Positions 11,514 through 55,368 of a stretch of DNA of 64,000 bases are shown piece after piece. The translations under genes and the position numbers were made by a program. How positions within the stretch are numbered: position 1 is the first letter of the stretch; each line of letters opens with the position of its first letter. The notes beneath the pieces were generated by a model. The model worked only from the letters and a program-made list of their open reading frames with translations. It had not been told where the DNA came from and did no database searches. The stretch comes from Paenibacillus sp. YYML68 (GTDB lineage: Bacteria > Bacillota > Bacilli > Paenibacillales > NBRC-103111), in the NCBI RefSeq assembly GCF_027923405.1, contig NZ_BQYI01000001.1, forward strand, positions 4,406,501 through 4,470,500, written 5' to 3'.

Positions 11514-14500
11514 AAGTCGGTCCAGGCATCCCATACGGGATGCGACCGTCCTCGACGTCGTCCTCGTCGCGATTTTTAGGATTTCAATCCTCGCACCCCA
11601 TATGGGATGCGACGTCTATGTGATGGTGACAGGTCGTCAGATCGGATAATTTCAATCCACGCACCCTATACGGGATGCGACAGCTTGAGCAACTGCAGGG
11701 GGCGAGCGCATGCTATTTCAATCCACGCACCCCATACGGGATGCGACCCATAAGGCGAGCATCGAAGCTCCTTACGATGCAATTTCAATCCACGCACCCC
11801 ATACGGGATGCGACGGAGGACTTCGTATCCATAGGCGCTAGATTTGATATTTCAATCCACGCACCCCATACGGGATGCGACGCACAAGGCAAGTCTTGTC
11901 CTACGATTGGGCAGAATTTCAATCCACGCACCCCATACGGGATGCGACCTGTAATATTTTTCTTCTCGCAGGCCGATGACTTATTTCAATCCACGCACCC
12001 CATACGGGATGCGACTCAGCGTGGTGCATGCTGACCTCGGTGTGGTGATTTCAATCCACGCACCCCATACGGGATGCGACCGGCCTCTGTAGCCCAGCTC
12101 GCGCATACGGTCGCTATTTCTATCCACGCACCCCATACGGGATGCGACGGCTGGTGTGTTGACTGTATCGGTAGATCATTAATTTCAATCCACGCACCCC
12201 ATACGGGATGCGACGGTATTTTCAAGTTGGTTAGGAGATTGATTGGATATTTCAATCCACGCACCCCATACGGGATGCGACCTCTTCAACTTGATCACCT
12301 CGCCTTGTTACTAATTTCAATCCACGCACCTCATACGGGATGCGACGTCGTGACGACGCAGATTCAGAATCCGTCGTGTATTTCAATCCACGCACCCCAT
12401 ACGGGATGCGACCATAACGGACATGTCCCAACTTGCTCAATATTGGAATTTCAATCCACGCACCCCATACGGGATGCGACAAAATATACTGACGAAATTG
12501 ATTTAGAAGATGCATTTCAATCCACGCACCCCATACGGGATGCGACGAAAATATCGATTACAAGCGCCGCCGCTTGCGTATTTCAATCCACGCACCCCAT
12601 ACGGGATGCGACGCGAACGATCCTCCTTCGGGATGCCCGCCCGAAATTTCAATCCACGCACCCCATACGGGATGCGACTGCCGGCATCGAGCGTCCCTGC
12701 GCTCGCTTCAGATTTCAATCCACGCACCCCATACGGGATGCGACGATCTGCCCGTCTCCAGGCTGCCAGAGTGACATATTTCAATCCACGCACCCCATAC
12801 GGGATGCGACCGTGCATTTTGCTCGCGAAGCTCACGATTAAAGGATTTCAATCCACGCACCCCATACGGGATGCGACTTAATAAACTCACCTTAGCTGAC
12901 CGAATCAAAGGATTTCAATCCACGCACCCCATACGGGATGCGACACTATTTTCGTAAACTTCATTCGCGTTCGAATTGATATTTCAATCCACGCACCCCA
13001 TACGGGATGCGACGATTCGTTCCCTGAAATATCTACGGCAGATACCTATTTCAATCCACGCACCCCATACGGGATGCGACTCGGCTGGCTGATCAATATT
13101 GCGAAACGTAAGATATTTCAATCCACGCACCCCATACGGGATGCGACGGGAGCTAAGCTCCATAAGGCCACCCCGAGGAGGGATTTCAATCCACGCACCC
13201 CATACGGGATGCGACGTCATCGGGATACCGCGATATGGACACCATGACATTTCAATCCACGCACCCCATACGGGATGCGACTCGCAGTCCGAAGGGGCCT
13301 CAGTATTCCAAGTCAGAATTTCAATCCACGCACCCCATACGGGATGCGACGCTATTGGGCACTGCAAGCTTATAGAGCAATGCTATTTCAATCCACGCAC
13401 CCCATACGGGATGCGACGTATACGTCAAGAAAGAATGGTCACCGCAAGAAGATTTCAATCCACGCACCCCATACGGGATGCGACCTTCGCAGGAGGAGGC
13501 GGCGCGAGTACAGGGATTATTTCAATCCACGCACCCCATACGGGATGCGACCCGGAAACAGAGCACTACTGCGAGGATGTTTTATTTCAATCCACGCACC
13601 CCATACGGGATGCGACAACTGATCGCGGAGGGAGACGCATGACAACTGCAATTTCAATCCACGCACCCCATACGGGATGCGACTGCAGCGCGGATTCGTG
13701 CCCAACAGGAGGCCGAGGCATTTCAATCCACGCACCCCATACGGGATGCGACGGAATACGCCAAGAGCGCGGCAGCTCGCGAGGCTATTTCAATCCACGC
13801 ACCCCATACGGGATGCGACTGGATCTCCGCACTGGCTGCTGCTGGTTTACAAGTATTTCAATCCACGCACCCCATACGGGATGCGACGTCGTCCCAAGAT
13901 GCACCGCAAGCCCGGAAATCGTATTTCAATCCACGCACCCCATACGGGATGCGACCTCTTTTAGCCAGTCATTGTCCTTGCCGATCTCAGGATTTCAATC
14001 CACGCACCCCATACGGGATGCGACACTCATTGACCTGCAGCAGTACGGCGATCAGAAGATTTCAATCCACGCACCCCATACGGGATGCGACGATATTAAG
14101 TTTCGCAGGGAGGAATTAAACGATGATTTCAATCCACGCACCCCATACGGGATGCGACTGGCTCTGCAAGTTCTTATTTTCATGGTAGTCTTATTTCAAT
14201 CCACGCACCCCATACGGGATGCGACCAGCGGGTACCTCCGGCGCTACGTCCGCACTTGATTTCAATCCACGCACCCCATACGGGATGCGACCCGTTTATC
14301 GGCACACTAAGCCTTGTCTGCAACATTTCAATCCACGCACCCCATACGGGATGCGACCCTGACTCTCCAGATACTCCATATACCTTCAATGATTTCAATC
14401 CACGCACCCCATACGGGATGCGACGCGCCAGCGTAATCAGACCTTTATAGCCGATCTATTTCAATCCACGCACCCCATACGGGATGCGACGGTTCATGCA

Positions 14501-15505
14501 GCGGCGCGGGCTAGGTCCTTACAAATTTCAATCCACGCACCCCATACGGGATGCGACGGCGATGCAGACGCTGCTCGACTATCAGATGAACATTTCAATC
14601 CACGCACCCCATACGGGATGCGACTATACGTGACGAATCCGATCTCATTAACTGCCTATTTCAATCCACGCACCCCATACGGGATGCGACCCTTGGTTGG
14701 GCTGATCTACTTATCTTACAAAGAGATTTCAATCCACGCACCCCATACGGGATGCGACCATCGTTGCGGCTAGCCGTAGTAGCGGAATTTTTGATTTCAA
14801 TCCACGCACCCCATACGGGATGCGACTTGTAGGGATACCAAAGAGAGGAGACTGGACTGATTTCAATCCACGCACCCCATACGGGATGCGACTCAAACGG
14901 AATGTAGTAAACGTTCTTCGGGATGTTATTTCAATCCACGCACCCCATACGGGATGCGACGTAATGATGGGTCAAAAAGCGCCGTTTGGTGACAAAATTT
15001 CAATCCACGCACCCCATACGGGATGCGACTCGCGTCGACCTCATCGTCGTTAGCGACCTTCGGATTTCAATCCACGCACCCCATACGGGATGCGACCCTA
15101 GCGAGTTGAAGTAATTACCCGTGGATACTTATATTTCAATCCACGCACCCCATACGGGATGCGACCTTCTCAATCCACCGACCGTAGTTGTTTTTGAGGT
15201 TATTTCAATCCACGCACCCCATACGGGATGCGACTGAACCTTGCGATGATTAAAAAGCTCAGCCTGCAATTTCAATCCACGCACCCCATACGGGATGCGA
15301 CTCGTTTTCTGGTGCAGTCCCGTAAACTCGGTGTCGAAATTTCAATCCACGCACCCCATACGGGATGCGACAGTGCAGGGGCAACGTCAATAACTGGGAG
15401 CACATATTTCAATCCACGCACCCCATACGGGATGCGACAGCAACCAACAAGCCGCAGACAGCGGATGAGGACATTTCAATCCACGCACCCCATACGGGAT
15501 GCGAC
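11514..15505 (-). CRISPR. Type I-C CRISPR array, 60 repeats and 59 spacers
   Basis: Repeats are 33 nt; on the plus strand each begins ATTTCAATCCACGCACCC and ends CATACGGGATGCGAC. Read on the minus strand they begin GTCGC and end GTGGATTGAAAT, the type I-C form, with a CGCATCCC/GGGGTGCG hairpin and an 11-nt handle. Hand counting gives 60 repeats with spacers of 32-37 nt. The repeat at 11514-11546 is strongly degenerate, and those at 11581, 11649, 12116 and 12314 carry one or two substitutions. All variants lie at the low-coordinate end, so that end is the old, leader-distal one and the array is transcribed on the minus strand from the leader next to cas2. Confidence 0.98.
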
Positions 15506-15687: not shown

Positions 15688-15987
15688 CTACAACAACAAT
15701 GGACCTTCTAAGTCAAAGACTTCTTTCGCTCCAATGTGCTCTACCTTGTTCTTATAGTTATTTCCCAGCTGATAGAACCGAAGACTGTCTTGCTCTTGAT
15801 CGATAATGTCTAGAAGCTTTATCTTTAATATAGCAAATTGTGTTGGATCGATCACGCATTCAAAAACTGAATTTTGTACTCTTTGACCGTAACTCAGACA
15901 AGTCTTCGCAACTTGCCTCAGCCTTCTTTGCCCTGCACTGCTTACAGTGCTCACATCGTATGTAACTAATACCAGCAGATCCTTCAC
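15688..15987 (-). CDS. cas2: CRISPR-associated endoribonuclease/adaptation protein Cas2
   Basis: 99 aa. It begins with the ferredoxin-like strand LLVLVTYDV (Asp11, the conserved acidic residue of the family) and contains RVQNSVFECVIDP. Cas2 dimers bridge two Cas1 dimers in the spacer-integration complex. The start is GTG, directly following the cas1 stop codon with no gap, so translation is coupled. It is the last gene of the cas operon, next to the leader. Confidence 0.96.
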   Translation of the reverse strand: MKDLLVLVTYDVSTVSSAGQRRLRQVAKTCLSYGQRVQNSVFECVIDPTQFAILKIKLLDIIDQEQDSLRFYQLGNNYKNKVEHIGAKEVFDLEGPLLL

Positions 15988-17019
15988 CTACTTCCACAAG
16001 AATGGTGGATACTCGTCCAGATCATTACGCAAATATCTAGCTAACAGTAAGGCTTGTGCATGAGGAACCAAGCCCCATGAGATCTTCTCCCCCAGATAAG
16101 GGTGAGTGATTTTCTCCTGCTTCTTATCCTGCCAAGCGGCTAAAAACTTCTTCCTACCTTCATCCCTCATGATAGCAGCGCCGTTCTCTTTCTTGATGAA
16201 GTCGTCTTTATTTACAATCCTCTTGTTAATAAGCGACAACACAAACTTATCTGCCACAACTCCGCGTAGCTCCTCCATAACATCCAATGCCAAGGATGCG
16301 CGACCTGGCCGATCTCGATGTAAGTATCCAACGTAAGCGTCCAAGCCAACGCCTTCTAAGGCAGCCGCCACATCACTCGCAAGCAACGAGTAGGCGAACG
16401 ACAGCATCGCATTGACGTAATCCAACGGAGGTCGACGTGAACGAGAATGAAAGTAGAAGTCCTCTTTCTGCTGCAGGATCATAGAATCAAACAGCTTATA
16501 ATAGCTAGTAGCGGCTTGGCCTTCCAGGCCTCTTAATCGCCCCAAATCCTCGCACGCTCTTACATCGAGAATGGCAGCCGATAGCTGCTGTGAAATCGAT
16601 TTGAACTGGTCAACATCGATACGCAATGGATAATCTCTAGTCATTCTTTCGATCATCCACTTGTGATTGTAGAGCTTGCCTACGATAAAGTTTCGTGCGA
16701 TCTTCGCTGACAGCGCTTCGTCTTCCGAGATTTTATACTGTTTTTTTCGCAGAACGACATTTCCCTTGCTCTCCCCAATAACTCGGGCAAGAAATCTACC
16801 GTGCGCAGTGAAGAATACAAGGGAAATGCTACGCTCTGCGCAATAACCCATTAACGCAGGACTTGCTCCCGTATAACCAAACGTAATGATCGCTTCCAAG
16901 TTGTGCAGCGGCAGTCTCCCTAGCTTCTCTTCATCCTTCAGAACGACAACATTATCGCCATCCAGCGACAAATACGTATCGGGCTGTGTAATATACAACG
17001 TATTAAGAAGCTTTTTCAT
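15988..17019 (-). CDS. cas1: CRISPR-associated integrase Cas1 (type I-C)
   Basis: 343 aa, the usual length for Cas1c. An N-terminal beta domain (LYITQPDTYLSLDGDNVVV) is followed by the helical catalytic domain. The metal ligands of the family can be placed at Glu166 (GLEGQAA), His234 (GYLHRDRPG) and Asp246 (LALDVMEEL). It catalyses integration of new spacers at the leader end with Cas2. The start overlaps the cas4 stop by 4 nt, and the stop abuts the cas2 start. Confidence 0.97.
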   Translation of the reverse strand: MKKLLNTLYITQPDTYLSLDGDNVVVLKDEEKLGRLPLHNLEAIITFGYTGASPALMGYCAERSISLVFFTAHGRFLARVIGESKGNVVLRKKQYKISEDEALSAKIARNFIVGKLYNHKWMIERMTRDYPLRIDVDQFKSISQQLSAAILDVRACEDLGRLRGLEGQAATSYYKLFDSMILQQKEDFYFHSRSRRPPLDYVNAMLSFAYSLLASDVAAALEGVGLDAYVGYLHRDRPGRASLALDVMEELRGVVADKFVLSLINKRIVNKDDFIKKENGAAIMRDEGRKKFLAAWQDKKQEKITHPYLGEKISWGLVPHAQALLLARYLRNDLDEYPPFLWK

Positions 17020-17669
17020 TCCCTGATTTTCCCTTCAAGATAACTTTTGACGGTCTGTTTACTCATAAGCTCCGGCAAGCAAATATGGAGAAGGGAACAG
17101 CTTTGACAGTAGGGCCCAGTTTTCACCTTGGGTGTATGTCTTCGTATGAAATAGTCATGCATTTCCTCTACAATTAGCCTTACCTTTGATTTAAGTGCTG
17201 CGGTAATTGGCACTTCAATTCGATGCTTGATCTCGTTATAAAATATATAGCCTACGTTGACCTCGCATAGCAGCATTTCCTCCAGACAGAGAGCTTGTGC
17301 AGCTAATTGCAGCACATCCTCATCCTTCATTTTGGGCTTACCGCGTTTATATTCAACAGGATAAGCCAAATATGTCCCCTCAGCTCCGCTGATTGCAACG
17401 CCACGGTCATCTTTAATAAACTCGACAACATCACAAATTCCGGTAATCTTCAGTTCCTCGGACTTTACTGGCATCCCTCGAACAGTAAGCTTGTCTCCCC
17501 GTTTTTCCCTGGTAAACGGTTGGTCGACGTTCCGATGAAGGTGATTACCCTCAATTGTCTTGACGTTCTCTTCCCACTGCTGTTCAATATGGATCAGCGC
17601 CCACTGCCGCCTGCAAAACTGATAGTGCTGTATACCCGATAACAACAAATAATCTTCGCTATAATCCAT
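17016..17669 (-). CDS. cas4: CRISPR-associated exonuclease Cas4
   Basis: 217 aa RecB-like nuclease with an iron-sulfur cluster. Cysteines Cys19 (HYQFCRRQW) and Cys188, Cys191 and Cys197 (YCQSCSLLHIC) form the cluster set. The nuclease core includes the CDVVEF and PVEYKRGK motifs. In type I-C systems Cas4 works with Cas1-Cas2 to trim prespacers and select those next to a proper PAM. It overlaps the end of cas7 by 11 nt and the start of cas1 by 4 nt. Confidence 0.96.
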   Translation of the reverse strand: MDYSEDYLLLSGIQHYQFCRRQWALIHIEQQWEENVKTIEGNHLHRNVDQPFTREKRGDKLTVRGMPVKSEELKITGICDVVEFIKDDRGVAISGAEGTYLAYPVEYKRGKPKMKDEDVLQLAAQALCLEEMLLCEVNVGYIFYNEIKHRIEVPITAALKSKVRLIVEEMHDYFIRRHTPKVKTGPYCQSCSLLHICLPELMSKQTVKSYLEGKIRE

Positions 17670-18519
17670 GAATGATCTCGACTTCTAAGCCTTCCAAGGG
17701 CACAACTGAAAACGTATAGTCCGTATAAGCTTTAGGCTCTTCAACAAGTCTTTCCACCAATAACGATCGATGAACCTTGGCCGAAGAATATTGGCCCATC
17801 TTGGACCGATGCGCCCACCAATAAACAGTGTGTACTTCCATGCTTCCTTCGGGCCTAGCTGATGATGCATCGTTCTCGAACAAGGAGACGAGCGCTTTCT
17901 TCATTTTCTCGGCATCTTCAACTGAAAACCCTGTCTTCTCAGCCAACTGTGTATTGATACTTCCATAGAACAGATACACCCCCGAATCTACGCGATGCTT
18001 CATACCCATCGTATCCGAACCTCTTGCAGCTCCCGGCTCCGAGTTCACGCTCTTCGTAATTTGCATACTCGTAATATCGATTGGATCTAAACTAGTTGCG
18101 GTGTGGATAGATACAGGCCCCCGGACACCGACAGAGACACCGCCGTTCTTATCTCCTTTGAATGCAAATACTTGACCGAATGCTCTGACATCTAACCATT
18201 CTTGACAAGCGATGCTGGAAAAATCATCACTCGAGACCGTCTTTGACTTCAATATTTTCTCCAGCTTAGGATTCGCGTCGGCCCGCTCTCTTAAGCTATT
18301 GAATGCATCCGACTTCCGGTCATTCGATTGAACAAAGATCGATTCGCCCATATCCTGCAGACGATTGCGAATCTTCCGCTTCAGAGCAACATCCGAGATT
18401 TCACCGTATCCATCGTAATTTTGACGAGGACGATTACCATTCAGTGGGTCACCGTTTGGGTTCGCCTTACTTACGGACAATACAACTGCAAAATCAATTT
18501 TGTGATCTAATGGTTTCAT
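17659..18519 (-). CDS. cas7: Cascade backbone subunit Cas7 (Csd2, type I-C)
   Basis: 286 aa. It begins with the RAMP strand HKIDFAVVLSVSKANPNGDPLNGNRPR, a signature of Csd2/Csh2 Cas7 proteins. The GVRGPVSIHTATSLDPIDI and TKSVNSEP segments are also typical. Several copies line the crRNA and form the Cascade backbone. AAGGAG lies 8 nt before the ATG. It follows cas8c by 14 bp, and this strong separate Shine-Dalgarno agrees with the higher copy number needed. Confidence 0.96.
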   Translation of the reverse strand: MKPLDHKIDFAVVLSVSKANPNGDPLNGNRPRQNYDGYGEISDVALKRKIRNRLQDMGESIFVQSNDRKSDAFNSLRERADANPKLEKILKSKTVSSDDFSSIACQEWLDVRAFGQVFAFKGDKNGGVSVGVRGPVSIHTATSLDPIDITSMQITKSVNSEPGAARGSDTMGMKHRVDSGVYLFYGSINTQLAEKTGFSVEDAEKMKKALVSLFENDASSARPEGSMEVHTVYWWAHRSKMGQYSSAKVHRSLLVERLVEEPKAYTDYTFSVVPLEGLEVEIIHGL

Positions 18520-18533
18520 CTCAATCTCTCCTT

Positions 18534-18908
18534 TTAATTGTTTACTTCGGCTGAATTGGTATTCTCTTTCTTCGGGTATAGCTCATGACGTTGACTATAG
18601 TAGCCGAGTAAATACAATCCGGATAATGGCTTGTTATTAAACTGTTCAATCGGAATACGTGAGGCCACTTCATCAATAATCTTGGTCAAGTAGGTTGCCT
18701 TCGTCCCTAATCTAGCCTGATACGGCTGCAAGCAATCTTGTATCGTTTTCCATGTTCTAGCCGGATGTCTCGAGAAAGCATTCATATAGCGTATGGCGTT
18801 ACTAGCTCGTTCTTCATCACCCAACGCACGTCTTTCCAGTACATCGGCCACTGCCAGCAAGCGACCGAATAAATAGTCACGATCATTATTTTTTGTATCT
18901 AATGCCAC
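18534..18908 (-). CDS. cas11c: Internal small Cascade subunit Cas11c, translated within cas8c
   Basis: An in-frame GTG at codon 515 of cas8c (18908-18906) is preceded by AGGAGGG (18922-18916) with a 7-nt gap, one of the best Shine-Dalgarno sites in the operon although it lies inside a gene. Translation from it gives 124 aa ending at the cas8c stop, beginning with [12 protein letters not shown] after the start. Independent translation of the small subunit from the 3' part of cas8 is established for type I-C systems. Start choice and product are inferred from sequence only. An overlapping ATG one base upstream is out of frame. Confidence 0.72.
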   Translation of the reverse strand: MALDTKNNDRDYLFGRLLAVADVLERRALGDEERASNAIRYMNAFSRHPARTWKTIQDCLQPYQARLGTKATYLTKIIDEVASRIPIEQFNNKPLSGLYLLGYYSQRHELYPKKENTNSAEVNN

Positions 18909-20450
18909 ATTGAATCCCTCCTGTCTATTACTGAGCACTTTGTTGACCAGCGCGCATGTAATGCTGAGCGTCTTCTCCCATTCCCATTTATCCATCGACA
19001 CAGGACTTGACGCACGGTGGTACGCGCTATTTACAATATCTGAAGGTATACTGCGACCATCGACGATGCAGGGTAGCATGCGCTCCATTAGACCCTTGAC
19101 GATCTTGTCGTTTGCTCTTGGACCGTATGCAGCGAATGCGATGTCCCTAGTTGCAGGTGCGCCGTAAAATTGAATAAACTGATTCTTATCATTCTTTCGA
19201 TACCGATGCAGCCACGCACAGGTGGAATGCCACTCCACTAGCCTGTCCAAGTAAAAATCAATATCCATATTGCGATAATGCAGGACGGCCATACGACCAG
19301 TAGTGGCTGAGTCGAGTATGAGCAGATTCACTCTCACCTTCTCATTAGATGGTGCAGAGAGACGATTCTTGTATCCAGCTAATGCCTTGGCCACTTCAGT
19401 AGCATATTCCTTGTTCGTAAACGAAACCTTCTCTTGTACAATAACGGCGCTCGGGTCTATGGAGTACATATCGTCACAGAATCCTGGAATGTCTGGATTC
19501 TCGTTAGCCCATACCATGAACACTCGATCATCATGAATGATTCCTTGTCGATTAATGAGCCACTTCAATGCATTATGGGCTTTCTGAGACACCTCATAGC
19601 TGATGCTTGCTGCTTCATGAGATAGATTGAATCGCCCCCGATACGTAAAGCCGCTCGTATCATTGGAAGAGATCAATTTCGCCTTGTCCCCTGAGTTTCT
19701 GATTTTGTTCGCATGCTTGTCCGTCGCAGGAAGCACTCTTCCTGACACATAGCAAAGCTTCTCTTCACCCAGCTGACCGTTGTAGAATCGGATGAAGGAA
19801 TCATACATCTCCTTATCCTTCCACACCTTTGTGAGTGTTTTATGGGGGGAATACACGTTAAACCGAACGAATGCGCTCGTAATCTCGCCATTGACTACAC
19901 TATAGATTGGCGGCTTTTTGCCGTGCAGACTCTCTGCTTGCTTATCCCAGGTGTCAATGAGTCGATTACTTGTGTCTGTGTACAGAATTCGATGACGAAC
20001 TAAATCTTCAATCAGACGCCGCTTAACCACATACGTGTAAATACTCTTTACTTTGGAGGTCGCATGCGGTGAGTTCGTCCATTCTTCCAGTTGCTTGATG
20101 TAATATGCGAAAGGCTCTTCTTTCTTAATCTCCCCGCCATAAGCTGCAAAGTCTCCTGCCACGAAGCTCAATTTATCATGCAGCGGATAGGGCATAGTCA
20201 CCGCCCCTTTACCTGAACGGCTTGAGGAATTCTCTGTACATGGGATCAGCGTAATGGCATCATTCTTGTCTATGACTGACGCCCAATGGAACTCTCCGTC
20301 TTCTGTGATGTGCACTTCGATATGCGCGCTTTGCGTAGTATGAGAGACGGGAAGCAACGTGAATTCTTGTTCGTTCCTCTTCTTCTCAATCTCACCAACA
20401 AGGTCCACGTTGGCTTCATACGTCTCATATAGATTCAATAGCCAGCTCAT
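18534..20450 (-). CDS. cas8c: Cascade large subunit Cas8c (Csd1)
   Basis: 638 aa, normal for Cas8c. The N-terminus [19 protein letters not shown] and the [37 protein letters not shown] region are typical of Csd1 proteins. Cas8c recognises the PAM and recruits Cas3. The C-terminal about 124 residues form a helical part that can also be made alone as Cas11c (see separate entry). The start overlaps the cas5c stop by 4 nt, so translation is coupled. Confidence 0.95.
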
Positions 20451-21166
20451 GGATTCCCCCCCTCATCCAGTTGTGCGAATAGCTCCTCGGCAGATACGAC
20501 TGTGTTGTGGTCAAAATGCTTCGGCCTCATGTCCTTAATGGTGCGAACATTCGTGCACTGCTCAGGAGTGATGAACTTAATGATTCCATCCTTCATGACA
20601 GGATTCCACAAGCGTACTTCAAGCTGATTTCTACCCGTCTCATCCGGATAATTAAGACCATGGACCATAGTACCGAGATGAATATCGCCATAGCTATCGT
20701 AGAATCCGTCCCCTTCTCCAAAAACACAAGGCTCCACATACGCTTGGCATTCCCTCGTTCCGAGGAAGATGTCTCTTCGCCCTCCCGCCTGAAGTGCACG
20801 CTTGAATATGTTATGGTGCTTGTGCTCATTATGGTCATAAGCCAGGTCTGGACGATGCATGTTAAATTCAAAATGAGCTCGAACCTGATACAAAACGTCT
20901 CTCAGATACGTGTAATTAGCCAGAGAATTCCCTCCACCATATTCCAGCGGGCGAACTCCTTTGGACTCCATCCGAATCGGCTTCATGACGCGAATTTCGT
21001 CGACGACCATAATCAGAGTGGGCTTGAAGTAAATACTTTCCACGATCCCCTTCATAGCCTGATACGTAGGTGCTTGATAACTCAACTTCTCTCCGCCCAG
21101 CTTGGTTAGCGGATCTGTGAAGAGCGCATAATCACCATAAACGACAAACTCTATAGAATTTCGCAT
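20447..21166 (-). CDS. cas5c: crRNA-processing endonuclease Cas5c (Cas5d)
   Basis: 239 aa. In type I-C, which lacks Cas6, Cas5 cuts the pre-crRNA at the base of the repeat hairpin. The catalytic residues reported for the Bacillus halodurans enzyme (Tyr46, Lys116, His117) fall at the same numbers here: Tyr46 in VESIYFKP and Lys116-His117 in DHNEHKHHN. It also caps the 5' handle in Cascade. GGAGG lies 7 nt before the ATG. It is the first gene of the cas5-8-7-4-1-2 operon, whose promoter carries the target site described at 21222-21258. Confidence 0.96.
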
Positions 21167-21221
21167 GGATTCACCTCCAATTCCTGTTTATTACACTTCT
21201 TACAACCCAATAATATCCTAA

Positions 21222-21258
21222 AAGTAGACATCTGTAAATACATAATAAATTATATGAA
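21222..21258 (-). promoter_or_regulatory. Predicted Cascade target in the cas promoter (PAM plus protospacer)
   Basis: Read on the minus strand, TTC (21258-21256) is followed by ATATAATTTATTATGT (21255-21240). The 'spacer' of the crRNA-like RNA at 21320 reads ATATAGTTTATGATGT. Matches cover positions 1-5, 7-11 and 13-16; mismatches are at 6 and 12 only. Beyond position 16 the match drops to background (5 of 18). TTC is the type I-C PAM. Every sixth crRNA base is flipped out in Cascade, so mismatches at 6 and 12 cost nothing. The protospacer covers the TATAAT -10 box (21254-21249). Seed-only pairing predicts binding without Cas3 destruction. Confidence 0.8.
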
Positions 21259-21281: not shown

Positions 21282-21290
21282 TGTTATACT
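21282..21290 (+). promoter_or_regulatory. Extended -10 promoter of the crRNA-like RNA
   Basis: TGTTATACT: an extended -10 (TG, one base, TATACT) on the plus strand. Transcription 6-7 nt downstream would begin at about 21296-21297, exactly at the first bases of the shortened repeat. No good -35 is seen, which extended -10 promoters tolerate. Confidence 0.6.
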
Positions 21291-21295
21291 AAATT

Positions 21296-21368
21296 GTCGC
21301 CGTTGGCGTGGATTGAAATATATAGTTTATGATGTGGGAACCTATCCTCTCAGCGAGAAGATAGGTTC
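21296..21368 (+). ncRNA. CreR-like crRNA mimic with one degenerate repeat
   Basis: A 24-nt repeat derivative (21296-21319) keeps the outer parts of the array repeat, GTCGC and GCGTGGATTGAAAT, but has lost 9 nt inside. It still folds: CGCC (21298-21301) pairs with GGCG (21305-21308), followed by the exact 11-nt handle TGGATTGAAAT, so Cas5c should be able to process or bind it. The spacer-like part from 21320 targets the cas promoter (see 21222-21258). The RNA would end at a hairpin, GAACCTATC (21338-21346) with GATAGGTTC (21360-21368). No T-run follows, so the 3' end is uncertain, and the hairpin could instead serve the cas3 transcript on the other strand. Confidence 0.75.
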
Positions 21369-21377
21369 TAGCTATTG

Positions 21378-23807
21378 TTAGATTATTCCCGATACAGGAT
21401 TACTGTCATTGTCGAGATCGACTCCGTATTCTTGGTTGTAGGCCGTCTCCTTGAGCACACATACTTTGCCATCCAGCAGGTAGACCAGTCCATCATTTCT
21501 CTCCAGCCTCTCTTTCTCGTAAGGAGACAGATTAATCGAATACTGCTGAGCCTTGCGCAGCACCTTGGACAAGCTATCGATTGAATCACGTCCGTTCAGC
21601 TGTGCAATGATCTCTCGGCCTTCCTCACCATAAGGAACGATTACGGAGGTCGTATAGTCCTCGATCACTTGAAAATGCTCTGCAGCCATCCGATAGCTAT
21701 TTACTATAATCAGCGGCAGCTTCTCCCCTTTACTGTGCTCATAGGCTTGGTTATACGAGCTTTGTTTCCGATTGGACGTCAGCAAGTCGGTCATGTCCTT
21801 CTCCAATTTCGGAACATAATAATTTAAGCTGGAGCTGAACTCTTCATAGAACTCCATAAAATATTTGTTCATAGCCTGAACAGATAACAAATGACCTCCG
21901 TGCAGCTTCTGGTCTCTCCTGAGATCGAGGAGAATCTGCGTTGTCAATTTCTTACCAACCTGTATCTCTCGAAGTTGCTTCAGGTTCTCCTCCGAATGAT
22001 CGATGACATAGACCTGCTGAACGGCCTCCTTCCCATGACGATTACATCGGCCTGCAGCTTGTGCTATAGAGTCGAGTCCCGCCAAGGAGCGAATGACACA
22101 ATTAAAGCTAACATCGACACCCGCCTCAATCAGTTGAGTGCTCACACAAATTACTTTTTCTTTTCTCTCCAGACGTTCCTTGACTTGTCCTAAAATATAA
22201 TTCCGATGCGCCGCGCACATGGAAGTGCTTAAATGGTAGATCGGAATATCTCCCTCCTTCATAAGAAGGTACAGTCTTCGAACCACCGTCTTCGTGTTCA
22301 ATATGACCAGTATGCTCTGGACTTCTTCCAGCTTCTCAAAGACAAATTGAGCGAGCCTTTCACTGTCGATTGATCCATCCGTTGCTTGATCCACGATCTC
22401 CACACGTTTGAAGGCTTCAATAATGCGATCCAGATCTTGAATCATTTCGTGGTTGGCGTTCAGATCGAGCTTATGCTCGACATCATCTAATCTAGGTTGA
22501 GTTGCCGTACAAAGAATGAGAGTGGACCGACCGTAAACCTTCAAGAAATTCAGTGCCTGATTAAATAGCGATACACAAGGGACTGGAACCTTCTGCACCT
22601 CGTCAAAAATAATAACCGATTCACATAATCGATGAAGCCTTCGAATATTCCGACTCCCTTTAGCGAAAAACACATTCAAAAACTGCACCATCGTAGTAAA
22701 AACGATCGGACAGTCCCAGTTATCCTTCGCAAGCTTTAATTTGTGCTGCGTATTGATGATTCCATCCTGATGCTCATCATCATCGTTAACATCTTCGATG
22801 ACGTTCGAGTGGTGTTCTAAGATATGGACATCGTCATCTAAGATTTCTCGAACCTCTCTAGCATTCTGTTCAATAATCGTTGTGAATGGAACAATGTAAA
22901 ATATTTGCCTCTTGCCATACCGCTTAGCATGTTTAAGTGCGTATCTTAGGCTAGCAAACGTCTTCCCTCCGCCTGTGGGGATCGATAGCGTATATATTCC
23001 GGGTGATTCCTCCGCAAACTGATCGCACCGATTGGACATCTCTCTCCGAAGTTCATTAATTCGTTCGTTCGATGTTTGTTGAGAATTTAACTTATTGAGT
23101 TCGACCATCAGCTTCTCATAATACATCGTAAAAAGCTGTGTGCGGTCTTGTTCCGGTTCTCTGCTGGTATTGTCTTCAAATATTCTCGTATCGGTTCGGT
23201 CGGCATCAATTAACATGCTAAATACAAGCTTGGTTAGGAACATTAGCTTCTGTTCACCGCTTCCTGTAAACGGTGTTTTCAAAAAAGCATCCAGTTCTGC
23301 AATTGCACGGATAACGTATTGCTGAAAATCCGCCTCACTGATTACTTTATCGAAAAATAGCTCCTTCGATCGCTCATATTCGGGCAACTGATTCTGATCC
23401 TTGAGCACTCGCTTCAAGTAAGGTGACTCCTGCTCTTGATTCAAAAAATCATGAAGGTAGGAATGATGCGATAAGATCGCATTTCCTACAACTTCAGCCA
23501 AAATCCATTCGAGTCTGGAAGGTGCTCCTGTATGATACAGCTGATACAAGAGCTTACCACCAGCTGTCGAATGGTCGACACTTCCTCTTTTCGGCGGAGC
23601 ATCAGGGTTGTTCACGGCTTCAAGAATATATGCCCTGAATTCATTCGTGTATTTGCCCATGTCATGAAGCATACCCGCAAGACCAGCTATGTGCTTAATC
23701 CCCAGCTTGTCCCCATACGATTCCGCCAATTTCTTAACTCCGATTAAGTGCTCCTCTACGGTCTGAATCTTCTCGTCCCGTTCGCGTATGTGGGCTATGT
23801 ATTCCAT
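21378..23807 (-). CDS. cas3: CRISPR-associated nuclease/helicase Cas3
   Basis: 809 aa. An N-terminal HD nuclease has His20, HD (48-49), His79, HH (114-115) and DAD (201-203). An SF2 helicase follows with Walker A SIPTGGGKT (275-283), DEVQ (402-405) in place of DEAH, TATQ (434-437) and motif VI QAAGRCNRHG (583-592), then a C-terminal domain. All catalytic residues are intact, so interference should work. GGAGGGG lies upstream of the ATG. Unlike many type I-C loci, a 211-bp gap separates it from cas5c, and that gap holds the crRNA-like RNA and the operon's own promoter. cas3 is therefore probably expressed from a separate promoter (23841-23870). Confidence 0.97.
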   Translation of the reverse strand: MEYIAHIRERDEKIQTVEEHLIGVKKLAESYGDKLGIKHIAGLAGMLHDMGKYTNEFRAYILEAVNNPDAPPKRGSVDHSTAGGKLLYQLYHTGAPSRLEWILAEVVGNAILSHHSYLHDFLNQEQESPYLKRVLKDQNQLPEYERSKELFFDKVISEADFQQYVIRAIAELDAFLKTPFTGSGEQKLMFLTKLVFSMLIDADRTDTRIFEDNTSREPEQDRTQLFTMYYEKLMVELNKLNSQQTSNERINELRREMSNRCDQFAEESPGIYTLSIPTGGGKTFASLRYALKHAKRYGKRQIFYIVPFTTIIEQNAREVREILDDDVHILEHHSNVIEDVNDDDEHQDGIINTQHKLKLAKDNWDCPIVFTTMVQFLNVFFAKGSRNIRRLHRLCESVIIFDEVQKVPVPCVSLFNQALNFLKVYGRSTLILCTATQPRLDDVEHKLDLNANHEMIQDLDRIIEAFKRVEIVDQATDGSIDSERLAQFVFEKLEEVQSILVILNTKTVVRRLYLLMKEGDIPIYHLSTSMCAAHRNYILGQVKERLERKEKVICVSTQLIEAGVDVSFNCVIRSLAGLDSIAQAAGRCNRHGKEAVQQVYVIDHSEENLKQLREIQVGKKLTTQILLDLRRDQKLHGGHLLSVQAMNKYFMEFYEEFSSSLNYYVPKLEKDMTDLLTSNRKQSSYNQAYEHSKGEKLPLIIVNSYRMAAEHFQVIEDYTTSVIVPYGEEGREIIAQLNGRDSIDSLSKVLRKAQQYSINLSPYEKERLERNDGLVYLLDGKVCVLKETAYNQEYGVDLDNDSNPVSGII

Positions 23808-27471: not shown

Positions 27472-29103
27472 TCAGGTCGATGAAGACTGAACGATATAGG
27501 CGGCGAGTGTCCGCACCATCGCCCCTGTGCCGCCTGCCGGCTCCGTTCCGCGCTCGCTCCACAGCCATGCGGTACCGCCCGTGTCCAGATGCACCCAAGG
27601 CGTATCCTCGGCGAAAAATCCGATAAACAAGCCGCCCGTAATACAGCCGGCCCACCGATCCCGTCCGGTCGCATTCTTAATGTCTGCGATGCGGCTCTTG
27701 AGCATGTCCCGATACTCGGGGTAATTCGGCAGCGGCCACACCTTCTCATCCGCGTTCCGCGCGGCGTCGAGCACGTGCTGCAGCAGACTGTCATTGTTCG
27801 TTACGGCCCCGGTCGCCACATCCGCGAAGGAGACGAGCACCGCTCCAGTCAGCGTCGCCACGTCGATCAGCTTCGTCGCGCCGAGCTGCTTCGCATACAG
27901 CACGCCGTCGGCGAGCACTATTCGGCCCTCGGCGTCCGTGTTGAGCACCTCAACCGTCTGTCCGTTCATCAGCGTCACGATGTCGCCGGGCTTGAACGCT
28001 GTGCCCGACGGCATATTTTCGGCAGCCGGGATGACGATGACGACGTTGACGGCCGGCTTCAGGCGGCCGAGCACATGGACGAGGCCGAGCAGTACCGCCG
28101 CACCACCCATGTCGCTGACCATCTCCTCCATCCCCTCCGGCTTCTTGAGGGAGATGCCGCCTGTGTCGAAGGTGATTCCCTTGCCGACCAGGCCGAGCAC
28201 CTCGGACGGGTGTGACGGGGCGGACGGATCAGAAGGATCGGATTCGTCGCCTTCAGGCGCGCCCTCGTAGCGGATGGCGATCATCCGCGGCGGGTTCACG
28301 CTGCCTTGACCGACAGCGGCGAGGCCGCCCATGCCGTGCTCGCGGATCGCTTGCTCCTCGAGCACGGTGCAAGCGAGCCCGTAGCGGGCGGCGAGGCTCA
28401 CCGCCGCCCCCGCCAGCTCTGCCGGCCCGAGGTAATTGCCGGGCAGGTTGGTTAAGTCTCTCGCCGTATATACGGCGAGAGCGATCGCCTCTGCGGCCTC
28501 GAGCGCCTGCGCGAGGCCGGGCTCGTCCGCGCTGCCTGCGGCCAGCAGCGCGACGCTGCGCAGCGCCGGCGGCGGGGCATCGCCCTCCCCGCCGCCGGCG
28601 CTGCCGCGGGCATAGCTCGGCATGCGGTAGCTGCCGAGCCACAGCCCTTCCGCGAGCGCCTGCACGCGCTCGCGCAGCTCATCCGCGCGCTCCGCGTTCG
28701 CGCGCGGCAGCGGCGCCGCAAGGCGCTCCAGCCGGAGGCTGAGCGCCTTGCGGGCCGCGTAGACGCCGGCGCTGCGCCAGCCGGCGGCGCCGCTCGTGCG
28801 GGCGGCTTCGCCGAGCCCGCACAGCAATAGGGCCTGATGCTTCGCCATCAGGCCGCACGTGTACACGGCCTCGGTCTCCCCGAGGCCGGCCGTGAACTGT
28901 CCGCGCGCAGCGAGAGCGCGGACCGTCTCCTGCAGCGGAGCCGGCACGTCTACGCCGGCCTCCGCTGCCCAGCTGCCCGCGAGCAGCTCCTCGCGGGTCA
29001 CGAACAACACCAGTGCGTCGGACTCCGCCTCCGACGCCTCCAGCGGCTGCAGCTCGATGCGCAGCTGCAGCTCCTGCGTTACATATTGCGCATAAGCATC
29101 CAT
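27472..29103 (-). CDS. pepA: Cytosolic leucyl aminopeptidase (M17)
   Basis: 543 aa from the ATG at 29103, chosen because GAGGAG lies 8 nt upstream; a GTG three codons earlier lacks such a site. The N-terminal macro-like domain is GC- and Ala-rich. The C-terminal catalytic domain has LVGKGITFDTGGISLKKPEGMEEMVSDMGGAA, the family signature NTDAEGRIVLADG (both zinc-binding) and IKNATGRDRWAGCITGGLF. It releases N-terminal amino acids from peptides as a hexameric two-metal enzyme. The N-terminal half is noticeably richer in GC than the neighbours, which explains many spurious open frames there. Confidence 0.93.
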   Translation of the reverse strand: MDAYAQYVTQELQLRIELQPLEASEAESDALVLFVTREELLAGSWAAEAGVDVPAPLQETVRALAARGQFTAGLGETEAVYTCGLMAKHQALLLCGLGEAARTSGAAGWRSAGVYAARKALSLRLERLAAPLPRANAERADELRERVQALAEGLWLGSYRMPSYARGSAGGGEGDAPPPALRSVALLAAGSADEPGLAQALEAAEAIALAVYTARDLTNLPGNYLGPAELAGAAVSLAARYGLACTVLEEQAIREHGMGGLAAVGQGSVNPPRMIAIRYEGAPEGDESDPSDPSAPSHPSEVLGLVGKGITFDTGGISLKKPEGMEEMVSDMGGAAVLLGLVHVLGRLKPAVNVVIVIPAAENMPSGTAFKPGDIVTLMNGQTVEVLNTDAEGRIVLADGVLYAKQLGATKLIDVATLTGAVLVSFADVATGAVTNNDSLLQHVLDAARNADEKVWPLPNYPEYRDMLKSRIADIKNATGRDRWAGCITGGLFIGFFAEDTPWVHLDTGGTAWLWSERGTEPAGGTGAMVRTLAAYIVQSSST

Positions 29104-29139
29104 TCGCAGCACTCCTCTTCAACATTAGCCTATTAGCGG

Positions 29140-29872
29140 CTAGAGGCTCCGCTCACTCCACGGCCTCTCACTCACTCGCTCGCTCAACCGCATTAGCGCA
29201 CCTTTCGTGCGCTATCCGCTCACTCCTCGGCCTCTCACTCGCTCGCTCAACCGCATTAGCGCACCTTTCGTGCGCTATCCGCTCACTCCTCGGCCTCTCA
29301 CTCGCTCGCTCAACCGCATTAGCGCACCTTTCGTGCGCTATCCGTTCACTCCACGGCCTCTCACTCGCTCGCTCACCTGCGTTAGTGCACCTTTCGTGCG
29401 CTATCCGCTCACTCCTCGGCCTCTCACTCGCTCGCTCAACCGCATTAGCGCACCTTTCGTGCGCTATCCGCTCACTCCTCGGCCTCTCACTCGCTCGCTC
29501 ACCTGCGTTAGCGCACCTTTCGTGCGCTATCCGTTCACTCCACGGCCTCTCACTCGCTCGCTCACCTGTGTTAGCGCACCTTTCGTGCGCTATCCGCTCA
29601 CTCCTCGGCCTCTCACTCGCTCGCTCAACCGCATTAGCGCACCTTTCGTGCGCTATCCGCGCACTCCTCGGCCTCACACTCGCTCGCTCACCTGCGTTAG
29701 CGCACCTTGCGTGCGCTATCCGTTCACTCCACGGCCTCTCACTCACTCGCTCACCTGCGTTAGCGCACCTTCCGTGCGCTATCCGTTCACTCCACGGCCT
29801 CTCACTCACTCGCTCGCCCTCGTTAACGCACCTTCCGTGCGCTATCCGCTCGCTCCACAGCCTCGCAATGCC
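29140..29872. repeat. Tandem repeat array, 63 bp period, 11 copies
   Basis: The core AGCGCACCTTTCGTGCGC recurs with the GCGCAC element starting at 29196 and every 63 bp after that to 29826 (11 copies, no indel). Each unit holds the palindrome GCGCAC-N5-GTGCGC and a CTCACTCGCTCGCTCA stretch. Because 63 is a multiple of 3, several frames on both strands stay open and would read as 21-residue repeats; no ribosome-binding site supports them. The array fills the gap between the aminopeptidase start and the aldo/keto reductase stop. It shares period and core (AGCGCAC, CTCAC-CGCTCGC) with the array at 1-398. Confidence 0.93.
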
Positions 29873-30904
29873 TTACAGCCGATCCCCCACCTTATAATAA
29901 TCCGAAGCCGCCATCACAACCTCGCGCATCGGCAGGTCATACGGACAGAGCGGCTCGCACAGCGGCTTCTCCTTACAGGGCTCATGATCGGCACAGGACA
30001 GAATCTTCTCCTTGTTCTTCTGGTAGAAGCCGTCACCCTTGGGCAGCAGACCGAACGTCTTGCGTACTTGACTTGAGATCATAATGTCCGGGATCGCGAT
30101 GCCGACCGGACACTGGCAATAGTTACAGCGGCGGCAATTGTGCTCACCGAGCTCGGACGCCAGCTGCTCCAGCTCCGCACGCTCCTCATCGCCGACCGCC
30201 GTACGCATCGCCGCGATGTTCTCCTTCACTTCGTCCACACTGACCATACCGGAGATGGTCACGTGTACATTTTGACTGAACGGATAACGAAGCGCCTTAT
30301 CGACAGGCTGAATAAAGCCGCCGGACAGCGGCTTCATCGCCGTCTTGCCCATATCCAAGCGCGTCAGCTCCGGAATGAGCTCATCCAGCGCGAACGGCTG
30401 TGCGAGACTGAGATGGAACAGCACCTGATCGAACTGCTCCTTCTGAATCCACTTCACGAGCAGGTCCGGACGATGACCCGTAATGCCGATGAACCGGATA
30501 TGACCCTTGCGCTTCAGCTCCAGCGCTGCTTGGTAAGCGCCGTCCTCCGCCATCGCGTCCTTGAACTCCTGCGGTCTGTTTACATAATGAATTTGCAGCA
30601 GATCGATGACGTCCGTCTTCATCCGTTCCATGCTGCGCTGCATCTCTTCCATCGCAGACTTATAATCCCGCTTCGCCGTCTTCGTCGCGAGGAAATAATC
30701 AGCTCGCCTATGAGAGATGCATTCCCCGATGATCTCCTCACTGTTCCGATAGCCTGCCGCTGTGTCGATATAATTAATGCCTTGATCCAGTGCATAATTG
30801 AGTGTCTCTCTCGCCTGCTCCAGTGGAACGCTCGGCAAATTCATCGCCCCAAAGCCTAACGAAGAAACCTTGTATCCAGTTTTCCCAAAAGTTGTGTAAC
30901 GCAT
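29873..30904 (-). CDS. Aldo/keto reductase with C-terminal iron-sulfur domain
   Basis: 343 aa. A TIM-barrel aldo/keto reductase domain carries the catalytic tetrad Asp47, Tyr52, Lys75 and His106 (NYIDTAAGY, ATKTAK, IHYVNRP). It is followed by a ferredoxin-like tail with CRRCNYCQCP and a second Cys set, CADHEPC, PLC and PLCP, enough for two iron-sulfur clusters. NADPH-dependent reduction is usual for the barrel. The clusters suggest electron exchange with ferredoxin or a role in redox sensing (inference). GGAGGGG lies 11 nt before the ATG. The stop codon lies at the edge of the 63-bp repeat array. Confidence 0.88.
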   Translation of the reverse strand: MRYTTFGKTGYKVSSLGFGAMNLPSVPLEQARETLNYALDQGINYIDTAAGYRNSEEIIGECISHRRADYFLATKTAKRDYKSAMEEMQRSMERMKTDVIDLLQIHYVNRPQEFKDAMAEDGAYQAALELKRKGHIRFIGITGHRPDLLVKWIQKEQFDQVLFHLSLAQPFALDELIPELTRLDMGKTAMKPLSGGFIQPVDKALRYPFSQNVHVTISGMVSVDEVKENIAAMRTAVGDEERAELEQLASELGEHNCRRCNYCQCPVGIAIPDIMISSQVRKTFGLLPKGDGFYQKNKEKILSCADHEPCKEKPLCEPLCPYDLPMREVVMAASDYYKVGDRL

Positions 30905-53500: not shown

Positions 53501-55368
53501 GCAGGAATGCTTGATATCGATACGTTGGCCCGAAACCAGCCGTTTCCTGTAGATACAGGCGTATCTATCGTTTTCGATTGTTTGGACCATGTCTGACCAT
53601 TTGCCGATGTATACAAATTAATTTTGTTCGTTACAGAGGGTGTATTATAATACACCTTTGCCTTGAAGACGGTCAAATTACTAAGATTATAGACTACCTC
53701 TTCCGTTGTGTTAACTTTACGCCGAATTCGAGAAGTGTCGCCTTCGAAATTGGCGGTAGTACCGCCGACAAATTGCCAGCTCGATGTATGCGAATAAGAC
53801 AGGCTCCAATCGTTAAGCGGGTCCGTGATTGTGTCTTGCCCGTTTTGCACCGTGATTTGAGAAATTTGAGGCGTCAACGCGTCAATCTCATCGTCGCCAT
53901 GGTTTACAGTCGTTCCCGGTAACCGATACATATCTACCGTTCCGAAATACGGGAGTGCATACTGTGTGAAATCGTCATTTAGTAGAGTCGTTCGGCCGTT
54001 AGCGGTATTCCAGCCTTTCAAATTATTGTAGTTGAGCGATTCGTAATTGGAAATGCGATTCGAGAACATACTGATCCCAAATCCAAAACCGGGACGGAGC
54101 AGAACAGACCGATCCATGCCATTAAACTGTTTATAAGAAGATATTGCGCCTCTCGACTGTACGTTAGAATCGTTTGCGATCGCTTTTAAGCTTGTGATAA
54201 GGTCGATCGGAATCTTCGAGTAATCCAAGGTCGGTCCTTCTTGTAGATAGTACTTCAAAATACCCTTGAGCCGTTCAACATCTGCTGGCCTCCCGTATTG
54301 CGTGAGGCGTGTAGCCGCAGTCATAAAGGAGTAGCCATCAAACGTTCTTGAGGGAAAAGAAATCGTTCTGCCGCCCAAATTATCGAACGACGTATTTTTA
54401 TAGATTATGCTTTCGAATGAATGATATAGAAAATGGTACAGATTATTGCTTTCCGGATTAATGACCTGCCAGGAAGAATTGTTCAGAAGATAGAGCATTT
54501 GCGCCAAACCAATAATCGAAGTATTACCATAATTCAATGTGTACGCGTGGTAATCGTGCTGTACAAAGGAACCGTCTTCATAAAAGCCATTACCCTTCTT
54601 CACCATTCGAAAAAGTGGAATCAGCGCATCTTTGACGGAAGCCAGCTTGGAGCCGTCCTTCGCAAGAATGCCTTGCTTGAGCACAATCATGCTCTTATCG
54701 CTCAAATTCGCTCCTGTTGCAAGCTTCGTATTGCTCGGGGTACTCGTCTGATTCGTGGTCGGATTCGGGGTGAAATGACTGATAGCTGTCATATAGTTGC
54801 TGATTTGTGTGCTGGTCAAATCGTTGTACATCAAGCAAAGGGTGTCAACAATCGCGATTGGAGAAGCAATCTCCCAATCATACCAGTTGTTAGACGGGGA
54901 ATAGGCTGCGAACGGAATCGTTTCGTTATACCAATTCGCATATAACCAATCCAACCCGCTGATAATGTCATCTCGAAGCGAGAGATTATGGTAAAGAGGC
55001 GATCCTACAACGCTATAAGCAAGAGCCATCTGCTGTAGCCTCGAAAAGCTTGAAGAAATATACTTGGTCGGATATTGGCTAGGCGCGTTCGGAAACAAGT
55101 ATGTTCGATTCGCGTCCTTGTTGAGCGAATCCCAATTCGTTTGAGCCGTGGTAGCAATAGTGCTGATTTTCGCAGCGATATCGGAATCGGACGTATTCAA
55201 CGCTGCCCCTCCTGTCAGCGAATCCAACCATTTAGCCCGAAGCGTATCGAATTCATCAGACGCAGACGAAGCCTGCACATCTACAGGCTGCACAATTCCG
55301 AGCATACCGAATACAAGCAGCAGACATAAACCAATGTTGACCCATCTTGGCAAACGTTTTTTAGTCAT
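50581..55368 (-). CDS. Secreted PL8 polysaccharide lyase with inserted and C-terminal modules
   Basis: 1595 aa, about twice the usual family length. A signal peptide (cleavage near VQA, 31-33) is followed by the alpha-toroid with the catalytic triad of hyaluronate/chondroitin/xanthan lyases: Asn221 (TGANLSD), His271 and Tyr280 (GSFVQHDYHAYTLNYG); the N-H and H-Y distances of 50 and 9 agree with known enzymes. The central beta domain is split by an insertion at about 500-643 and resumes at WVGGTDIEGKYGISGMQL. A second copy of the inserted module (about 960-1100), a laminin-G-like module (about 1110-1255) and two DNRLRE domains (about 1270-1415 and 1435-1595) follow. It cleaves a uronic-acid polymer outside the cell. 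A cre site lies upstream. Confidence 0.9.
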   Translation of the reverse strand: MTKKRLPRWVNIGLCLLLVFGMLGIVQPVDVQASSASDEFDTLRAKWLDSLTGGAALNTSDSDIAAKISTIATTAQTNWDSLNKDANRTYLFPNAPSQYPTKYISSSFSRLQQMALAYSVVGSPLYHNLSLRDDIISGLDWLYANWYNETIPFAAYSPSNNWYDWEIASPIAIVDTLCLMYNDLTSTQISNYMTAISHFTPNPTTNQTSTPSNTKLATGANLSDKSMIVLKQGILAKDGSKLASVKDALIPLFRMVKKGNGFYEDGSFVQHDYHAYTLNYGNTSIIGLAQMLYLLNNSSWQVINPESNNLYHFLYHSFESIIYKNTSFDNLGGRTISFPSRTFDGYSFMTAATRLTQYGRPADVERLKGILKYYLQEGPTLDYSKIPIDLITSLKAIANDSNVQSRGAISSYKQFNGMDRSVLLRPGFGFGISMFSNRISNYESLNYNNLKGWNTANGRTTLLNDDFTQYALPYFGTVDMYRLPGTTVNHGDDEIDALTPQISQITVQNGQDTITDPLNDWSLSYSHTSSWQFVGGTTANFEGDTSRIRRKVNTTEEVVYNLSNLTVFKAKVYYNTPSVTNKINLYTSANGQTWSKQSKTIDTPVSTGNGWFRANVSISSIPAGTQYAKIELVTDYTSGLGDQSWVGGTDIEGKYGISGMQLHPVGQTLMAKKSWFMFDNEIVALGSDINGTDNKTVETIVDNYRLNDLGDNALTVNGTAQPTTLGWSNTASGTNWIHRAGNVANSDVGYYFPGGANVSMLREARTGSYQEVDHNYGSTDNYTSNYMTMWLNHGRNPANGAYAYVILPNMTSTQVSHYASNPDVSILENSSHAQAVKQKTLNIVGVNFWKDMTKTVDLITSDKKASVMTKEAPGDSIEVSVSDPTQENKGIINIELNRSASYIMSADPGITVTQLSPTIKLSVLVNGAAGKAFKARFNLNPNAVMPVPSGAAAVKLQSLGIVDNAEDWSQVYSTTNNWAVDSSTPSYFEGDFVRLKRTTNTPESMVYHVGGINNFSAKIYAVASVDNKVKVYASPDNLNYVQIPITHDTPISTGTSGNNDWYRANFTPAEPVPAGTNYLKIEFSNDALIKSPQLSQIIVNGTAVAATDYSAVYDLGWNEATSLTTQFDVTPGSANDDQTVGYTGATQTISDVASLPIAIRFNGSGTVDVKNDFSFQSLTSVAYTPNQTYHVRMVANLATQTYDVYVTPPSGTETQIAANYAFKAGSSLTNLGQLLLKSSNNGGLKVQNHTFAAPLPNIPVPQAAPDAQLTPTDDAFVRDGTYASTNYGSSPTLELKTGSSGYTRQDYIKFDLSSLSRPIASAKLGLYMALTDTSSAVTTNANVYSITYDDWTEGTITYNNKPATDALLGNVVANRTYQYVELDITDYIKGQYAGDKLASFAVIEQLGLNAIMNSKESSNKPYINIQYTPESTTYYPSADAYVQSGTNKDTNFGANTSLVAKRGSGNLDRQSYLKFDLSSLSRPVTSAKLGIYIGVTDGSGALFGDTGIYSVGNDSWTETGITYSNKPPVNSLLARFTPDRTMKYVEVDVTSFVQAQYAGDKTASFAVIDFSGQFTQMYGKEIGAAKTSYLKIVTN

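Follow-up and report, generated by a model that had tools for sequence, protein, structure and literature searches.

A probable CreR-type RNA between cas3 and cas5c in a type I-C CRISPR-Cas locus of Paenibacillus sp. YYML68 and its relatives

The DNA analysed here is a stretch of 64,000 nucleotides from Paenibacillus sp. YYML68 (contig NZ_BQYI01000001.1, positions 4,406,501 to 4,470,500 of the forward strand; hereafter, the window), in which a complete-looking type I-C CRISPR-Cas system is found on the minus strand. Its parts are as follows, with the matching protein models in brackets:

21378-23807, minus strand: cas3, HD and helicase (TIGR01587 and TIGR01596), convergent with the creR element described below
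20447-21166, minus strand: cas5c (TIGR01876), first gene of the predicted target operon
18534-20450, minus strand: cas8c (TIGR01863)
17659-18519, minus strand: cas7c (TIGR02589)
17016-17669, minus strand: cas4 (TIGR00372)
15988-17019, minus strand: cas1c (TIGR03640)
15688-15987, minus strand: cas2-like open reading frame of 99 amino acids, taken from the list of open reading frames and named Cas2 by position and look alone
about 11514-15505, minus strand: CRISPR array with the full 33-nt repeat, recognised by repeat sequence

Cas5c is the repeat-processing enzyme of type I-C systems (PMC10865793). A further, short array, whose repeat ends in the same way, lies at 2,090,815-2,091,292 of the genome, distant from the cas genes.

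Between cas3 and cas5c, on the strand opposite to both, lies a small element in which a single degenerate repeat is followed by a guide-like stretch and a hairpin:

21282-21290, plus strand: extended -10 of the predicted creR promoter, TGTTATACT, read from the sequence, 5 nt ahead of the repeat
21296-21319, plus strand: degenerate type I-C repeat with the hairpin CGCC/GGCG and the 11-nt handle TGGATTGAAAT, recognised by sequence and by recurrence in relatives
21320-21336, plus strand: creR guide, of which positions 1-16 are the matched part, defined by the sequence match to its target
21337-21369, plus strand: 3' hairpin that would close the RNA, defined by folding and by covariation in relatives

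The first-pass annotation of this DNA had described a 24-nt shortened repeat far from the array and on the strand opposite to the cas genes, with nine nucleotides deleted from its interior, an exact 11-nt handle and an extended -10 ahead of it, and each of these particulars was borne out. The shortened repeat occurs as a single copy and reads GTCGCCGTTGGCGTGGATTGAAAT, and the full array repeat in the RNA sense is GTCGCATCCCGTATGGGGTGCGTGGATTGAAAT; the two are identical over the first 5 and the last 14 bases, and 9 interior bases are absent from the former. Outside the array, GTGGATTGAAAT has one exact occurrence (21308-21319, plus strand), where 0.35 chance sites with at most one mismatch are expected in the whole window, and a search of the 5.09-Mb genome gave no further exact stand-alone copy of GCGTGGATTGAAA. 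The element is thus a degenerate CRISPR repeat outside the array yet inside the cas locus, as expected of a CreR, and its single copy sets it apart from an ordinary CRISPR array of at least two regularly spaced repeats. The GC hairpin CGCC/GGCG is present, but its fold (-4.4 kcal/mol, vs. -14 kcal/mol for the array repeat) is equalled by 78 of 200 shuffles of the window copy. The spacer-like stretch and stable hairpin were both recovered, the former as 17 nt of guide directly after the handle and the latter at -18.7 kcal/mol (0 of 200 shuffles as good), but the hairpin runs to 21369, one base beyond the end first given. The hairpin is followed by no T-run in the window genome. Over 600 bases round the element, Rfam gave a lone sub-threshold match (tp2, 20.8 bits vs. 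50), which is taken as chance.

The guide, ATATAGTTTATGATGTG, has a counterpart on the minus strand 37 nt from the repeat, where TTC is followed by ATATAATTTATTATGTATTTACAG and guide and target pair up to base 16 with mismatches at 6 and 12 only. In type I complexes these two bases are flipped out and unread, as is established for Cascade. The target and its surroundings can be laid out as follows:

21256-21258, minus strand: TTC PAM of the creR target, read from the sequence; the best site of 30 among 34 elements is flanked by TTC
21222-21255, minus strand: creR protospacer, reading from 21255 downward and matched over 21255-21240 save positions 6 and 12; its length of 34 nt is borrowed from the array spacer length
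21210-21238, minus strand: predicted promoter of the cas5c operon by consensus match, with -35 TTTACA at 21238-21233 and -10 TATTAT at 21215-21210

The spacing between the predicted -35 and -10 is 17 (TTTACA-17-TATTAT), and this promoter leads into cas5c. The target lies just upstream of the predicted -35, which a full-length protospacer would overlap, and the limited complementarity beside a PAM to what is predicted to be a cas promoter is a further mark of a CreR. When both strands of the 64-kb window were scanned for seed runs, with every sixth base skipped in scoring the guide-target match, the longest run was that at 21255 on the minus strand (16 nt, with TTC), and the second-best TTC-flanked site reached a run of 6. 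By plain matching over 17 bases, the 21255 site ties with one site, at 54791, which is preceded by GTC and not TTC. In the 5.09-Mb genome, the creR target is the sole exact match to TTCATATANTTTATNATG, and 5 more sites match with 2 mismatches. A TATAAT inside the target (21254-21249) was considered as the cas5c -10 and dropped, the TTTACA-17-TATTAT pair having been found downstream; because of this pair, and because three relatives (L061, L070, and L071) change these bases together with the guide, the hexamer is treated as target, and by its sequence it could conceivably serve a second promoter.

The distribution of the element was followed in the best 80 of 220 type I-C loci by Cas5c, with titles mostly of Paenibacillus, Bacillus and kin, in 77 of which cas3 and cas5c could be placed (L059, L068, and L069 have no placed gap). 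The element recurs in the cas3-cas5c gap of 34 of these 77 loci, with its strand opposite to that of cas5c, a count of non-independent events, since the loci are mutually related. It is present in 33 of the 35 gaps of at least 180 nt (the exceptions being L013 and L060) and in 1 of the 42 shorter ones (L011), the 180-nt cut-off having been picked after the data were seen. Among the 43 loci with no element in the gap, three (L019, L049, and L078) have one upstream of cas3, with a TTC target there in L019 (run of 16) and L078 (run of 10) and no target found in L049; in L057, 473 nt upstream of cas3 were searched. The element can accordingly sit upstream of cas3 where cas3 and cas5c abut, and the link with gap length together with these cases indicates a preference for the promoter of whichever operon includes cas5c. 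In a sample of the class comprising 398 genomes, the present one included, Cas5c was found in 53, of which 17 have a model match of at least 38.9 bits within about 1 kb; weaker matches were left uncounted unless confirmed by script, because model R1 gives array repeats up to 37.7 bits. Some gaps hold other open reading frames. A transposase-like frame lies between the creR target and cas5c in L006 and would part cas5c from the targeted promoter, a weaker transposase-like frame below the Pfam cut-off is found in the L013 gap, and a long one was seen by eye in L041.

Guide and target change together in these relatives. The test covered 34 elements, including that of the window, with L004 dropped as belonging to the same species as L003 (B. 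panacihumi). The mean TTC-flanked run was 14.7 in an element's own gap and 5.6 in the gaps of other species, and 0 of 10000 permutations reached the own-gap mean; the own-gap run was at least 13 in 30 of 34 elements, and shuffled guides gave a run of 13 in 1 of 1700. Since the choice of sites by seed run skips every sixth base, the scan was repeated neutrally, without skipping, by taking the site that best matched 17 nt of guide anywhere in the whole locus (7-64 kb), with no PAM required. The best site then fell within the own gap in 33 of 34 elements and had TTC in 30 of 34; it was the seed-run site in 29 of 34, and the top score was tied with one other site in five elements of the 34, including that of the window. 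Mismatches at positions 1-20 of the 30 TTC sites number 0, 0, 0, 0, 0, 25, 0, 0, 1, 2, 1, 20, 0, 0, 1, 5, 18, 19, 24, and 16, so that they concentrate at positions 6 (25) and 12 (20), are absent from positions 1-5, total 4 at positions 7-11 and 6 at positions 13-16, and rise to 16-24 per position at 17-20. Of the 87 cells at positions 1-16, 6 and 12 excepted, in which a guide departs from the consensus, 83 show that guide's base in the target too (32 elements); L001 and L011, in which the element is present with no TTC target in the gap, were left out of this count and of the seed-run tally by position. L070, L071, and L080 have quite different guides; the targets of L070 and L080 match theirs, and that of L071 does so with one break. 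The guide-target run breaks after 8-9 nt in L041 and L071.

A covariance model brought in 13 new held-out loci with cas5c, of which 12 could be tested (L132 has no readable handle). TTC stood at the best site in 3 kb in 10 of the 12, with a run of at least 13 in 8 of these; pairing breaks at base 9 in L136 and L137, and L133 and L135 have no TTC target. Two target orientations exist, the TTC target being on the other strand in L058, L077, L080, L130, L131, L136, and L137.

In the covariation alignment A1, which holds 26 of 35 elements aligned without structure (nine were dropped), both hairpins covary, with 92.7% of cells paired, a level that 0 of 500 shuffles attained, and 8 pairs in which both partners changed. 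A -10-like hexamer stands 3-7 nt ahead of the repeat in 21 of 26 elements, with an extended TG in 19 of these 21, and the distance from PAM to repeat start is 35-39 nt in 16 of the 26 elements listed (of 29; three with no recognisable repeat start were dropped). The conservation of repeat with handle, predicted promoter, and hairpins in relatives, on which the first-pass annotation had made its CreR-like reading depend, is thus found, and that reading is strengthened both by this recurrence and by a TTC target that co-changes with the guide, the target being a step beyond the annotation. On the cas5c side, 26 of 29 elements have a best -35 that begins within protospacer positions 13-29, compared with 0.30 in shuffles, and the score of the predicted promoter, a consensus guess, is modest (mean of 10.4 vs. 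9.3 in shuffles). With L004 again left out, a median of 18 guide bases precedes the longest perfect stem of the 3' hairpin (15-20 in 19 of 32 elements; range 12-28), a perfect stem of 6 is missing from two elements, and a T-run of at least 4 follows the hairpin in 14 of 34 elements, not including the window. If A-T extensions are included, the hairpin is predicted to begin as early as guide base 10-16 in many relatives, in which it would have to open for full pairing. A terminator shared with cas3 is not claimed, an A-run of at least 4 being present on the cas3 side in 4 of 34 elements only.

Taken together with the placement of the target, these data point to a CreR-type RNA through which Cascade would repress the likely cas5-8-7-4-1-2 operon, a reading to which we assign a probability of about 0.86. 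Other readings have to be weighed against it. A CreA-type antitoxin, in which the RNA guides Cascade to repress a toxin and so makes the CRISPR system addictive, has an identical parts list, and a tiny gene could go unnoticed downstream of the target, ahead of cas5c; target and cas5c are 560-740 nt apart in L003, L022, L033, and L037. This reading is nonetheless very unlikely, since the target lies 81-108 nt before the cas5c start in 21 of the 32 elements with a target, where a leader fits and little else, and no shared open reading frame was seen by eye in nine short gaps. The corresponding stretch of L022 holds an open reading frame of 142 amino acids with no Pfam match, behind the creR-targeted site and ahead of cas5c, which could be a cargo gene under creR control. 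Less probable still is an antisense action, in which the guide would pair with the cas5c transcript and Cascade would play no part: divergent adjacent transcripts and complementarity in cis would suit it, but the matched site is upstream of the predicted cas5c promoter, the adjoining TTC and the mismatches at 6 and 12 are marks of Cascade, and the orientation of the target is reversed in L058, L077, and L080. A decoy of the Racr kind, a stand-alone repeat that sequesters Cas5c or Cas7 regardless of its guide, has precedent in phage solitary repeats, including RacrIC1 for type I-C (PMC10651486), but Racrs are encoded by viruses or plasmids and act independently of the guide, whereas this element lies inside the cas locus of a one-contig genome, its guide is under strong pairing constraint, and neither blastn against phage records nor a search of viral contigs with one exact pattern gave a similar phage sequence; this explanation is rated lower again. 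The least credible is a functionless, decayed remnant of an old array, which the single and degenerate repeat would fit, as would L001, a decayed-looking copy with a broken stem and no target, but which is contradicted for the family as a whole by the co-change of guide and target, the kept -10, the covarying hairpins and the fall of mismatches on 6 and 12, all unlike a relic.

The sequence data establish the anatomy of creR, the fit of its guide to a target that has no second exact copy in the genome, and the concerted change of both in relatives. Under the preferred reading of a CreR-type RNA, the transcription of creR, its binding by Cascade and the ensuing repression are predicted, and would take the following course. 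RNA polymerase would start from the extended -10 at about the first base of the repeat (near 21296), Cas5c would bind the handle and hairpin and perhaps cleave the repeat, and Cascade would assemble on the creR RNA, bind the TTC site over or beside the -35 and block the cas5c promoter. The PAM of type I-C is TTC (PMC7913775), and type I-C Cascade in the absence of Cas3 can repress a promoter at a TTC site, with one repeat and one spacer about as effective as repeat-spacer-repeat (PMC10865793). In the native setting, repression would proceed with no cutting of the chromosome by Cas3, because pairing ends at about 16 nt. The arrangement could act as a titration sensor in which crRNAs from the array vie with creR for Cascade, and repression would be relieved by anti-CRISPRs that inactivate the complex. 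Since creR and cas5c are divergent and the PAM is 37 nt from the repeat, creR may itself be held down by the bound complex. A more specific proposal is that the hairpin after about 17 bases caps the RNA and yields a Cascade with few Cas7 subunits, which would bind but could not call Cas3 and which, between two divergent promoters, would silence the cas operon together with creR, gauging across Bacilli how much Cascade is free relative to crRNA load and anti-CRISPRs; this is put forward as a doubtful extension, lowered in our estimate because hairpin starts spread over 12-28 guide bases.

Self-regulation by a guide of limited match has a counterpart in type II-A systems, in which the RNA tracr-L sends Cas9 to its own promoter; the principle is alike in creR, and the effector and the RNA differ. 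CreRs are generally mini-arrays in which two degenerate repeats flank a spacer. Stand-alone repeats and mini-arrays, conserved near cas genes and with partial matches to cas promoters, were reportedly predicted in the Shmakov 2023 study. Among the matches listed in our literature search, none concerned a type I-C CreR by title or abstract, and Liu 2023 or Shmakov 2023 could list one. CreRs have been reported for types I-B, I-E, and V-A (PMC13131331) and, in general terms, for type I and type V-A (PMC12737573), and the relevant portion of a further paper names CreR with no subtypes (PMC12948488). The present element shares with them a crRNA-like RNA, a guide partly complementary to a cas promoter and predicted autorepression; it differs in belonging to type I-C, in having Cas5c as the repeat nuclease and in its divergence from cas5c. 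It also consists of one repeat and a hairpin, unlike a repeat by eye, with 17 guide bases in the window, instead of two repeats round a spacer. It is classed as a distinct form of CreR by its predicted mode of action, with the two-repeat feature lacking. Similarly, the CreA antitoxin RNA of CreTA is an ectopic degenerate repeat that guides Cascade to a TTC-flanked promoter (PMC9458426), but the target here is the cas operon, and inspection by eye of the nine short gaps gave no shared frame for a toxin. Racr phage solitary repeats are likewise single stand-alone repeats behind a promoter (PMC10651486), from which the element differs in not being phage-borne and in its constrained guide.

If the reading is true, type I-C joins the CRISPR systems that are governed by a guide RNA of their own, and an explanation is at hand for the cas3-cas5c gap being long in certain loci and almost missing elsewhere. 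The rules by which the complex reads its target (TTC as PAM, bases 6 and 12 ignored, pairing as far as about 16) can be deduced from the evolution of guide and target, and the creR idea is for that reason easy to test. Compact gene repression with type I-C Cascade could also naturally be modelled on a single-repeat, short-guide, hairpin-ended unit, and control of cas levels by creR would bear on the encounter of cells with anti-CRISPRs.

In the wider phylum, weak model matches were obtained in 4 of 397 other genomes (L148-L151). That of L151 was rejected as creR, being an array, and that of L150 yielded no candidate element. Outside the class, the weak match of L148 is near a Cas3-like frame by eye, and that of L149 has no recognisable cas gene nearby and a 17-base match beside TTT; these two are perhaps an orphan or a regulator of another subtype. 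Elsewhere in the window, at 29045-29974, a 63-bp tandem unit extends over about 0.9 kb and is open in several frames on both strands, between open reading frames that we take to be leucyl-aminopeptidase-like and aldo-keto-reductase-like.
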